Part shown: positions 24,680-27,961 of the stretch, piece after piece
Layout: the number at the start of each line of letters is the position of its first letter
How positions within the stretch are numbered: position 1 is the first letter of the stretch
NCBI GenBank assembly: GCA_024103355.1
Contig: JAGFIU010000041.1
Location: 1 to 60,844 of the forward strand
Direction of reading: 5' to 3'
Length of the DNA: 60,844 nucleotides
Source of the DNA: Bacteroidota bacterium
GTDB lineage: Bacteria > Bacteroidota > Bacteroidia > NS11-12g > UBA955
The notes under the pieces: model-generated
Database searches by the model: none
Told to the model about the DNA's origin: nothing
What the model saw: the letters and a program-made list of their open reading frames with translations, nothing else
Translations under genes and position numbers: made by a program

Positions 24680-25429
24680 TCATTGATATTGTGGGTTGTC
24701 TTTCAAAAAGATTTCAACATTTAATAAATCTTCGGGGCTGTCTATTGCAGGACTTTGGAAGTCTGTTTCAGATACCCATATTTTAAAGCCATTTTGCAAC
24801 CACCGGAGCTGTTCTAATTTTTCGATTTCTTCTAATGAGGACGGAGTCAATGTTTTGATTTTTGGAATGACTTGTTTTTTGAAAGCATATATTCCTAAAT
24901 GCTTATAATAGGAAGCAATTCCGGATTTGTCCCTATCGTAGGGGATAACACTTCTGCTAAAATAAAGTGCATGGTTGTCATTATTACATACAACTTTAAC
25001 CGAATTGAGACTGTTGATTTCTTGTTGCGAACTGATTTTTCTTTTTAGTGTACCTATTTCACTGTCTGAGTTCCCTAAACCATGTGCTAAGGCTTCAATT
25101 TGTTTGGGTTGTACAAAAGGTTCATCGCCTTGAATATTGATTAGTATGTCAAAGTCAAAATCATTTTTTTGCGCAACTTCAAAACACCTGTCAGTACCTG
25201 AGGGGTGGTTACCTGAGGTAGATATAACTACTGCGCCAAAATTTTTTGCTGCATCCGCTATTCTGTTGTCATCAGTTGCAATTATCACTTGTAAATTAAA
25301 TCCTGAAACTTTGCAAGCCTGCTCCCAAACCCTTTGAATCATTGATTTGCCTGCTATATCAATCAGCGGTTTGCCCGGAAAGTGAGTGGAAGCATATCTG
25401 GCAGGTATTACTATCAGAAGTTTTTGCAT
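24680..25429 (-). CDS. kdsB: 3-deoxy-manno-octulosonate cytidylyltransferase
   Basis: A 249-residue enzyme activating Kdo to CMP-Kdo for the lipopolysaccharide inner core. Family features are IPARYASTHFPGKPLIDIAGKSMIQRVWEQ (residues 6-36, CTP binding), ATDDNRI near 51, GDEPFVQPKQI near 102 and YFSRSVIPYDRD near 160, then KHLGIYAFKK. Full length. Its presence shows a Kdo-containing Gram-negative outer membrane. Confidence 0.96.
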   Translation of the reverse strand: MQKLLIVIPARYASTHFPGKPLIDIAGKSMIQRVWEQACKVSGFNLQVIIATDDNRIADAAKNFGAVVISTSGNHPSGTDRCFEVAQKNDFDFDILINIQGDEPFVQPKQIEALAHGLGNSDSEIGTLKRKISSQQEINSLNSVKVVCNNDNHALYFSRSVIPYDRDKSGIASYYKHLGIYAFKKQVIPKIKTLTPSSLEEIEKLEQLRWLQNGFKIWVSETDFQSPAIDSPEDLLNVEIFLKDNPQYQ

Positions 25430-25483: not shown

Positions 25484-27289
25484 TTAACTCATAGGTTGTG
25501 GTGTAGGAATGACGATAGAATTTATCTCTTCATAAAAATTATTCAACTCTGCCTGCCAATTGCTGTGAGTGTCGAATTTTCCCAATGTGTTTCTGTAATA
25601 TTCAATCCCCGACAACAGATTCTCTTTAAAAGCCAAAAAATGTTTGTTTTTTTTCTCATTAATTTCATCCGGCTTGCAATCATCAATTTCCTTTTTAAGG
25701 TATTCTACATACATTCCAAATTCTTTCATATACATATTGGGTCTGTATGTGTTGTTAAGGATATTGATTTTCCCGTAAATATGTCCCACCATCTCTACTA
25801 ATGTGGATTTGTTGGAGAAATATGCCATATTGGGTCCGGGACAAATTGAGACACCTGCTTCATCAGAGGTTTTTAATATATTATTTTCTGAATAAGCTGT
25901 TCTGACCAAACCCGTGCAAATGCAGGTCTTTTCTGTAATTTTATCATATTGTCTTTGATATTCTTTCTCATCCACAATGTTTTTTTCATCAAGTTCTTTT
26001 ATTTTAAGTTTTTGGTACTGACTTGAAGCTTCACAGATAGGTTTTTCTGTAAACTCAGTATTGTATAGTTTTAAATATTGGCTCTTGCAGGGACTCCCCG
26101 GTTTCCCTTTAGCCAATCTTTCATCACGTTGCAGGTCTTTGGAGTTGCCTCGAACTGAATTGAAAGGTACGCCTAAAGGTGAAATACCACTCAGGTATAA
26201 GTCTTCTTCTTTTGCATTGGTTAATAGTTCAAGAGTTTCATTATCAATATTAACAACTTCAGGGACAAGCAAAAATGGAGTTCCCCACCCGACACTGTCA
26301 ATTTGGTAATAATCTGTCAGGAACTTATGTTCTGCATAATTTCCAACACCTCCTTGAGCAGAAATTTTCATCTCCAAAGGAGCAGAAATAGAATTTTTCC
26401 CAAGCGTTTTAAGAGCTTCGTTCAGAATTTGGTGAGTAGTGTCAATGAGTGCTTGTCTGTTTTGTTTGAATTCTTCCAATATGGGTCCTAGTGTATGTCC
26501 CTCACTTGCAAAAGCATGCCCACCGCAGTTTAGCCCTGATTCTATTCTATATTCCGAAACCCATATTCCTTTTTTTGCCAACATTTTACCTTGCACAATA
26601 GCGGAGCGGTAATCACTTACTTTTAAAATTATTTTTTTATCTAACTCCCCGTTTTTATTAGGGAAAAAAGAATCAAAGTTAGCGATATAGCTATAAAGTC
26701 TTGGGCTCAAACCTGCTGACAATACCAATGAAGATTTTAGGCTGCTGTTTGCAAATCCTCTTACTGCCGCATGCGCATCATTGTACTCGATAGGATATGC
26801 TTCTCCTTTTGAATTGTAGTTAGTCCGGTCTAATTTTGTCATCACATTGACATCAATAGAACCTGCCACAATTAGTTCTCTAAGTCGTTTTTGAAGGTTC
26901 TGTTTGATTTGAACCTCTTTTTCATTCAGCATTTTTAGATATTCTTTTTTCAAAGAAGAGAAATCCGGGAGCATATCAAAGTATTTGGTTATCTCGGAAG
27001 CTTTTTCAAATGCCGAGTTTTTTAAGTCTTTAAATTTTTCTTGAACTATGTGGTTCATCACGTCAAGATAAGCAGTAATTCTCTTTGCTCTACTGTCAAT
27101 ATCGGATTTGCTAATCGGGCTGAATGATAAATTGAATTTTTTACAATAGTGCTCTCTCAAACGTTCAATAAGCATGTCGTCACCTAAAGAAAGTACGGAT
27201 GAAATACCTAAATGAGCAACTTTAACGGGTGTGTCTATGGTGTAGCCAATTCCCATAACAGGAATATGGAAATTGTGAGGAGATATCAT
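25484..27289 (-). CDS. Uncharacterised 601-residue protein, possible TIM-barrel with C-terminal cysteine cluster
   Basis: I do not recognise the family. It begins HIPVMGIGYTIDTPVKVAHLGISSVLSLGDD (8-38), like the first strand-helix of a barrel enzyme. It continues with GSIDVNVMTKLD (143-154), SSLVLSAGLSPRLYSY (187-201), ESGLNCGGHAF (250-260), and AQGGVGNYAEHKFL (311-324) leading to SVGWGTPFLLVPE (332-344). The last two segments resemble the Gly-rich phosphate/FMN loop and the terminal strand of nitronate-monooxygenase or IMPDH-type barrels. A second part holds Cys401, Cys419, Cys456, Cys458 and Cys483, the last in SICPGPNMAYF, which could bind a metal or cluster. There is no signal peptide or membrane helix. 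It is monocistronic with a long leader. The enzyme class is inference. Confidence 0.6.
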   Translation of the reverse strand: MISPHNFHIPVMGIGYTIDTPVKVAHLGISSVLSLGDDMLIERLREHYCKKFNLSFSPISKSDIDSRAKRITAYLDVMNHIVQEKFKDLKNSAFEKASEITKYFDMLPDFSSLKKEYLKMLNEKEVQIKQNLQKRLRELIVAGSIDVNVMTKLDRTNYNSKGEAYPIEYNDAHAAVRGFANSSLKSSLVLSAGLSPRLYSYIANFDSFFPNKNGELDKKIILKVSDYRSAIVQGKMLAKKGIWVSEYRIESGLNCGGHAFASEGHTLGPILEEFKQNRQALIDTTHQILNEALKTLGKNSISAPLEMKISAQGGVGNYAEHKFLTDYYQIDSVGWGTPFLLVPEVVNIDNETLELLTNAKEEDLYLSGISPLGVPFNSVRGNSKDLQRDERLAKGKPGSPCKSQYLKLYNTEFTEKPICEASSQYQKLKIKELDEKNIVDEKEYQRQYDKITEKTCICTGLVRTAYSENNILKTSDEAGVSICPGPNMAYFSNKSTLVEMVGHIYGKINILNNTYRPNMYMKEFGMYVEYLKKEIDDCKPDEINEKKNKHFLAFKENLLSGIEYYRNTLGKFDTHSNWQAELNNFYEEINSIVIPTPQPMS

Positions 27290-27484
27290 AATATTATTAA
27301 AACTAACATGTGTTAATTGACTTGCAATAATACAAGAAATTTTTAGACTAATAAAAGGATAATTAATAGTACTCTATTTATATCTTATAATGAGTAAATG
27401 ATTGCAATGTGATGTAAAGCAAAGAAATCCAAATTGACACTCAATGAGGATTCGTAGTTAAATATATTAACTCATAAATAGAGG

Positions 27485-27520: not shown

Positions 27521-27961
27521 CTAAATCTTTTCAACCCTTCTTTCATGTCTTCCTCCTTCAAATGCAGTTGAAAGAAAAGTGGATACCATTTCTTCAGCTT
27601 GAGTAGTTGTAACAAAGCGAGCGGGTAGGCAGATAACATTTGCGTTGTTATGCAATCTGGCAAGTTCGGCAATCTCTTTTGTCCAACATAGTGCAGCTCT
27701 GATATGAGCGTGTTTATTGGCTGTCATACAAACTCCATTTCCCGAACCGCAGATTAAGATACCGCCATGTCCTTGATTTGTTTCAACTGCACTTGCAAGC
27801 GGATGTGCATAGTCAGGATAATCAGTGGATTCTTCTGAATAAGTTCCGTGATCGGTGATTGTGTACCCGAGATTGGCTAAGAATTTTTTTAATTCCTCTT
27901 TTAGCTTGAATCCTGCATGGTCAGAGCCAATATGAATATGTGAAAATATTTTATTGTTCAT
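27521..27961 (-). CDS. rpiB: Ribose-5-phosphate isomerase B
   Basis: A 146-residue RpiB/LacAB-family isomerase interconverting ribose 5-phosphate and ribulose 5-phosphate in the pentose phosphate pathway. IHIGSDHAGFKLKEELKKFL (9-28), YPDYAHPLASAV near 68, the anion-hole loop GILICGSGNGVCMTANKH (87-104) with catalytic Cys, and NVICLPARFVT near 128 are all present. Its start overlaps the end of tatC by 11 bases, so the two are co-translated from one mRNA. Confidence 0.95.
   Translation of the reverse strand: MNNKIFSHIHIGSDHAGFKLKEELKKFLANLGYTITDHGTYSEESTDYPDYAHPLASAVETNQGHGGILICGSGNGVCMTANKHAHIRAALCWTKEIAELARLHNNANVICLPARFVTTTQAEEMVSTFLSTAFEGGRHERRVEKI

Follow-up and report, generated by a model that had tools for sequence, protein, structure and literature searches.

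The gene and its surroundings

The window, by which we mean the whole stretch of 60,844 nucleotides analysed here, contains the gene 25484-27289, whose features are collected in Table 1. The next gene upstream is found at 27521-27961, and the 231 non-coding bases between it and the start codon correspond to the long leader that was pointed out in the preliminary description of this locus. That the gene stands alone, as was also stated there, is only partly right, as a same-strand gene (24680-25429) begins only 54 bases downstream and the two genes may therefore be co-transcribed. The three segments which had been taken for parts of a flavin-binding barrel are located at residues 250-260 (ESGLNCGGHAF), 311-321 (AQGGVGNYAEH) and 334-344 (GWGTPFLLVPE) of the 601-residue frame, and the five cysteines had been placed correctly at 401, 419, 456, 458 and 483, of which 456 and 458 lie within CIC and 483 within SICPGP. 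The same genome also encodes a FabK-type protein (L141).

Table 1. Features of the gene 25484-27289 and of its upstream region. Positions are those of the window.
Feature	Position	Strand	Remarks
Coding sequence	25484..27289	minus	ATG start, 601 aa, intact ORF; putative FabX-like flavin/iron-sulfur protein; homologues found
TIM barrel with predicted FMN site, residues 1-360 including helical insertion	26210..27289	minus	AlphaFold2 and fold matches; putative barrel end, by comparison with FabX
Mostly helical insertion after second strand, residues 36-143	26861..27184	minus	Predicted helices 38-51, 66-91, 99-105, 112-121, 126-139
His258 of NCGGH	26516..26518	minus	Invariant; aligns with catalytic His182 of FabX
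Cysteine-bearing subdomain, residues 361-507	25769..26209	minus	Matches FabX [4Fe-4S] subdomain; structural alignment ends at residue 507
Cys401, proposed cluster ligand	26087..26089	minus	Invariant; aligns with FabX Cys300
Cys419, proposed cluster ligand	26033..26035	minus	Invariant; aligns with FabX Cys320
Cys456-Ile-Cys458, proposed cluster ligands	25916..25924	minus	Invariant; stretch without FabX counterpart; putative ligand role
Cys483 of CPGPN	25841..25843	minus	Invariant; tentatively placed by hand opposite FabX Phe339
C-terminal helical extension, residues 508-601	25487..25768	minus	Predicted helices 519-537, 545-569, 578-590
Palindrome TTAACACATGTTA, TAAC-N4-GTTA	27304..27316		CRP/FNR-type operator architecture
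TATTATTGC, putative -7 promoter element	27324..27332	minus	From sequence; also in congener L002

Recognition and distribution of the family

The window protein belongs to a real family of proteins, which is separate from FabX and much diverged from it, and for which neither the window protein alone nor a search together with 30 relatives gave a matching Pfam or NCBIfam model. For PF03060, the model of the nitronate monooxygenases (NMO), no row was obtained with the window protein at E values up to 10, and the model is also absent among the 25 families listed for 30 family members at E values up to 1. No paper on the family was found among the open-licence articles in PMC.

Members are present in 117 of 395 Bacteroidia genomes (67 of 196 genera), in 75 of 198 phylum genomes (51 of 103 genera) and in 7 of 57 close relatives. 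The named genome collection contains at least 580 matching stretches, and the contigs concerned are labelled Ignavibacteria, Calditrichota, Cloacimonetes, Sumerlaeota and Omnitrophota as well as Bacteroidota, labels of metagenome-assembled genomes that may be wrong. Among the viral contigs and plasmids searched no relatives were found. The best match outside the genus comes from a genome of another taxonomic family (G089) and is 71% identical to the window protein, whereas carriers of its own order share 48-53% identity with it. Since in addition 32 of 35 genomes of the window's own taxonomic family are without the gene and only three carry it, lateral transfer is likely, and the patchy distribution would fit a gene that has probably been passed between lineages. 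Some copies decay: G341 contains a second, broken copy with internal stops and split pieces (contig C1, about 4371179-4372862), and the copy L088, which was left out of all alignments, has one internal stop codon.

Conservation

Two alignments, A1 with 30 and A2 with 80 sequences, were used, both of which include the window protein and span about 45-75% identity to it. C255, H258 and the five cysteines C401, C419, C456, C458 and C483 are invariant in both of them (30/30 and 80/80). At this level of identity the motif pattern is therefore not due to chance, and cysteines varying freely among homologues, which had been named beforehand as speaking against the early reading, are not what was found. 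Further invariant residues in A1 and A2 are N148, E250, G257, G313, G314, G334 and W335, as well as S370 and P371. A basic helix with R228, K235, K239 and K240 is also conserved in the family, residue 240 being lysine in 78 and arginine in two of 80 sequences.

Predicted fold and structural matches

The AlphaFold2 model, which was built with 80 sequences (pLDDT 91.9, pTM 0.92), falls, according to Foldseek and realignment, among the TIM barrels of the FMN-dependent NMO/FabK/FabX class; a fold without a barrel, the other outcome that had been thought to count against the early reading, is thus not predicted. First matches in Foldseek were PfaD (E 6.3e-9), FabX (E 7e-9), FabK and nitronate monooxygenases. 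On realignment five FabX entries lead with Z 27.0-28.7 and an rmsd of 3.1-3.2 A over 324-336 residues, followed by PfaD (Z 23.5; the top row has an rmsd of 6.0 and hence a poorer superposition than FabX), FabK (up to 23.3) and nitronate monooxygenases (about 20-22), and fungal and mycobacterial fatty acid synthases are also among the next-best folds. The top solved match, FabX 9lt5, aligns with 331 of its 363 residues (Z 28.7, rmsd 3.1, predicted model against solved structure), so that most of the FabX cluster subdomain must take part in the match.

Residues 355-520 were also folded alone (pLDDT 82.9). This model matches FabX weakly (Z 2.3-2.5, 99-101 residues, 3.6-3.8 A, 18-24% identity, chain 259-363) and PfaD likewise weakly (Z 2.5-2.6, rmsd 6-7 A), and these are the only two which reach Z 2 or more. 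Weak as it is alone, the predicted subdomain points in the same direction as the FabX match of the whole chain.

Relation to FabX, FabK and nitronate monooxygenases

In PMC8626469 FabX from H. pylori is described as an acyl-ACP dehydrogenase/isomerase of unsaturated fatty acid synthesis that contains FMN and a [4Fe-4S] cluster. Of its 363 residues, 1-266 form a barrel and 267-363 a [4Fe-4S] subdomain with the ligands C300, C304, C308 and C320, which replaces the NAD(P)H-binding part of FabK; Ser273 in the SPxGxP motif holds the catalytic His182, and FMN is contacted by Glu175, G220-G221, Q240-T243 and the loop F339-T340-G341, where Phe339 touches it (PMC8626469). An iron-sulfur cluster is stated there to be absent from all other characterised family members (PMC8626469). 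The early impression that no known enzyme has such a combination thus had to be given up, as FabX contains both cofactors and is the best structural match. The reading as an oxidoreductase with flavin barrel and metal cluster, on the other hand, gains support from the predicted FabX-class barrel and the five invariant cysteines.

FabX homologues could be identified in three Bacteroidia genomes (G128, G161 and G222), one of them matching H. pylori FabX with E 3e-71 and containing all four ligand cysteines. Aligned by MAFFT with six family members, the three show 22-24% identity to the window protein and are largely without the insertion 36-143. The columns that are invariant across the six members and these homologues include G143-I145-N148-M150, S191-A192-G193, V224-S225-R228, G256-G257-H258, G313-G314, S370-P371-G373, C401, C419, G485 and N487, and the motifs GxIxxNxM, GGH, GG, SPxGxP, two cysteines and GxN are aligned accordingly. 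SPxGxP is present in all three FabX proteins and, within the family, in 27 of 30 and 70 of 80 sequences; none of 17 FabK/NMO proteins has it. The stretches G313-G314 and G334-T337 correspond to FabX G220-G221 and Q240-T243, G485 and N487 align with the FabX G and N, and FabX Glu175 aligns with Ser251, the neighbour of the invariant Glu250. In the basic helix, K240 aligns with Arg164, described as an ACP-binding residue of FabX, and Met236 with Arg160, which together with Arg164 is assigned to the ACP-binding helix of that enzyme.

The cysteines are spaced differently, C401-x17-C419-x36-C456-x-C458 plus C483 in the family compared to C300-x3-C304-x3-C308-x11-C320 in FabX. Two of them align with FabX ligands; the family does not have the FabX ligand pattern as such and is therefore called FabX-like rather than filed as FabX. 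Cys456 and Cys458 may supply the two ligands that remain beside Cys401 and Cys419. The whole layout, with His258, the FMN stretches, four cysteine ligands and Cys483 at the FMN loop, is a proposal read from the alignments.

Profile-profile comparison gave E 7e-4 at a probability of 26% with NMO and E 2e-3 at a probability of 15% with FabX, that is, significant E values with low probabilities. In a tree without two long rows the family groups with FabX, though not decisively: the support is 89/86, the branch is long (5.5 changes per site), and a grouping with FabK is not rejected (p-AU 0.226); with these two rows, PfaD and one odd NMO sequence, included, the family was not placed, and they were then omitted.

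Several other matches were set aside. When the PDB was searched by sequence, neither the single protein nor a 30-sequence profile found an enzyme match that could be trusted; rows for ApoA-I and vimentin (E 0.009 upward) cover the C-terminal helices and were taken as chance, as were the isolated weak matches of one member to the hybrid-cluster protein (E 0.016) and one to Prismane (E 0.03). A match of the subdomain profile to FabX was judged to be spurious.

Putative promoter and operator sites

Upstream of the gene, TATTATTGC resembles what we take to be the consensus of the Bacteroidota -7 promoter element. The site common to the window and its congener, TTAACAYRTGTTA, has the spacing of TGAYN4RTCA, presumably the usual one for FNR, with a different half-site. 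One copy of it, at the promoter of 25484-27289, is present in the window's own genome at up to one mismatch, and two exact copies occur in the congener G001, one at the family-gene promoter and the other in the gap that separates a Crp-family gene from a divergent HGD-D pair, HGD-D being the D-component of 2-hydroxyglutaryl-CoA dehydratase. The latter locus (L170, contig C6 78500-86500) has TTAACACGTGTTA between the gene of the Crp-like regulator and two divergent HGD-D genes. The occurrence of TTAACACGTGTTA at the family gene and at the HGD-D/Crp-like genes suggests a small shared regulon in G001. Within the genus of the window, the putative -7 box is closely followed on its downstream side by the palindrome, an arrangement that suggests repression.

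Across the family, TGAYN4RTCA occurs within 200 bases upstream of 30 of 112 genes, compared to a mean of 1.4 in shuffles; L057 and L088 are omitted from this set. In comparison to intergenic regions of neighbouring genes, with one further short region omitted, the operator is enriched (30/111 against 16/286, p 2e-8, kinship ignored), which is also seen for the named collection alone (12/78 against 16/286, p 0.007). The remaining 81 of 111 upstream regions do not contain this operator.

Neighbours and co-occurrence

In some genomes the family gene is found next to cbb3 oxidase operons (G198, same strand; G168, divergent), and other neighbours are NrdD/NrdG, a NorB-type reductase, RIC, NadA/NadB and regulators of the CRP/FNR and Rrf2 types. 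One or more such genes lie within 1.5 kb in 16 of 80 loci and beyond 4 kb in ten, and most of the 80 loci have no anaerobic seed gene close by; since the seed genes were picked after the loci had been viewed, the count of 16 is an illustration and not an unbiased test. By eye, no fatty acid gene was recognised as a recurrent neighbour. At locus L171 (G198) the family gene is located between genes that resemble nosDFY/nosL by eye and a same-strand cbb3 cluster, of which a ccoNO protein and a cation ATPase were confirmed. At L180 (G128) the gene of a FabX homologue is divergent to an adjoining PF03405 acyl-ACP desaturase gene, so that an oxygen-using and a FabX-type enzyme are encoded side by side.

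Co-occurrence was studied across 198 Bacteroidia genomes, 58 of which are carriers, a genome counting as non-carrier when it was not listed as a match in the family search. ccoN is present in 39 of the 58 carriers and 68 of the 140 others, a modest difference with kinship ignored (p 0.019); the ccoN rows of G095, G134, G156 and G167 fell below the curated cut-off and did not count towards ccoN, and the truncated one of G149 did. No association is seen for the oxygen-dependent desaturases of PF00487 (54/58 carriers, 126/140 others) or for NrdD (4/58 and 5/140). FabX occurs in three of the 198 genomes and in none of the 58 carriers, so that no genome contains both, and FabA over the cut-off was found in none of 40 carriers searched out of 119 known. 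Oxygen-dependent desaturases are thus usual in carriers, and of the known routes to unsaturated fatty acids that work without oxygen none was found in them.

Proposed function

We favour, with a confidence that comes close to even, an FMN-dependent TIM-barrel acyl-thioester dehydrogenase with a [4Fe-4S] cluster, by which unsaturated fatty acids would be made under oxygen scarcity; though unproven, a low-oxygen dehydrogenase of the FabX type fits the fold, the motifs, the operator and the missing pathway. The enzyme would work like H. pylori FabX, probably on acyl-ACP. His258 and FMN would oxidise a saturated acyl chain by two electrons, the enoyl chain so formed may be isomerised to the cis-unsaturated form, and the cluster, held by Cys401, Cys419, Cys456 and Cys458, would carry the electrons to an acceptor which need not be oxygen. 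Its role would be the formation of unsaturated fatty acids under scarce oxygen in bacteria equipped with oxygen-dependent desaturases but not with FabA. The cbb3, NrdD/NrdG, NorB-type, RIC and NadA genes near some copies also speak for it. The missing recurrent fatty acid neighbour, the missing link to desaturases and to NrdD and cluster ligands other than those of FabX count against this proposal, as do Ser251 at the place of FabX Glu175, the low profile-profile probabilities, the indecisive tree, the 81 upstream regions without the operator, the small share of loci with anaerobic seed genes and the palindrome position suggestive of repression.

Unlikely, but deserving attention, is an enoyl-thioester (or dienoyl) reductase, in which the same FMN and cluster would be used with electrons entering via the cluster, as FabK and PfaD reduce enoyl chains with NAD(P)H. 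The next-best folds, namely FabK, PfaD and the fungal and mycobacterial fatty acid synthases, are in line with it, the direction of the reaction is not readable from sequence, and FabK-type L141 makes it possible that the protein is a second reductase of its genome. What argues for a dehydrogenase is that FabX, itself one, leads the fold matches by a clear margin and shares SPxGxP with the family to the exclusion of FabK and NMO, and that the FabX cluster subdomain is described as standing where FabK binds NAD(P)H (PMC8626469).

We also regard it as rather improbable that only the FabX-type chassis is shared and that an oxygen-independent redox enzyme of another pathway, be it cofactor, cell-envelope or aromatic metabolism, is encoded here. 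Such an enzyme would suit the oxygen-independent or low-oxygen functions of some neighbours (NrdD/NrdG, NadA/NadB, cbb3 oxidase), the second palindrome of G001 beside the HGD-D pair and the Crp-like gene, and the lack of recurrent fatty acid neighbours by eye; however, the whole fold including the cluster subdomain matches FabX above any other solved structure examined.

Nitronate monooxygenases need oxygen, and an enzyme of that type acting on nitronate or in nitric-oxide stress is very improbable, even if the fold class of the protein includes these enzymes and genes for NorB-type reductases, RIC or Rrf2 regulators are found close to some copies: the protein is not recognised by PF03060, the Z values for nitronate monooxygenases are below those for FabX, and the cluster is described as absent from characterised family members other than FabX (PMC8626469). 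A plain flavoenzyme whose cysteines bind structural zinc or form disulfides is hardly credible: the number of cysteines (four to five can bind zinc) and their spacing unlike FabX would allow it, but all five are invariant in a region matching the FabX cluster subdomain, and two align with its cluster ligands.

Should the FabX-like dehydrogenase be correct, it would explain how membranes stay fluid without oxygen in bacteria whose desaturases depend on oxygen and in which both FabA and FabX are missing, and it would be a second solution found by nature for connecting a flavin barrel to an iron-sulfur cluster. More speculatively, and with clear doubt on our side, it might represent a third way of making unsaturated fatty acids, next to the FabA-type dehydratase/isomerase and FabX/UfaA, Bacteroidota-wide and under CRP/FNR control, in which a rearranged cluster would pass electrons to an acceptor other than oxygen and which would replace oxygen-dependent desaturases at low oxygen. 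Even if the substrate should prove wrong, a new family of redox enzymes is defined by the model together with the five invariant cysteines, one that is present in roughly a third of the sampled Bacteroidota genomes and unrecognised by Pfam and NCBIfam.

Comparison with known systems

FabK and the nitronate monooxygenases share with the family the barrel, the GGH motif and the GG loop; they have no SPxGxP, the gathering cut-off of PF03060 is not reached by the window protein, and FabK is described as binding NAD(P)H where FabX has its cluster (PMC8626469). PfaD and the trans-acting enoyl reductases (4z9r, 6lkc) are alike in belonging to the TIM barrel enoyl-reductase class. UfaA of Neisseria gonorrhoeae (NGO1024), compared by description only, represents the same physiological idea: PMC11300592 presents it as a FabX homologue of about 36% identity on which the synthesis of unsaturated fatty acids under anaerobic conditions depends, with an electron acceptor given there as unknown. 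Closest is FabX itself (HP0773; 7e1q, 9lt5), with the TIM barrel of the FMN class, the GGH histidine, SPxGxP, the C-terminal cysteine subdomain and the GxN loop in common. In contrast to its 363 residues the window protein has 601, and what is new in the family are two extra helical parts, one of about 110 residues inserted behind strand 2 and the other a C-terminal extension, together with a different spacing of the cysteines and a fifth invariant cysteine.
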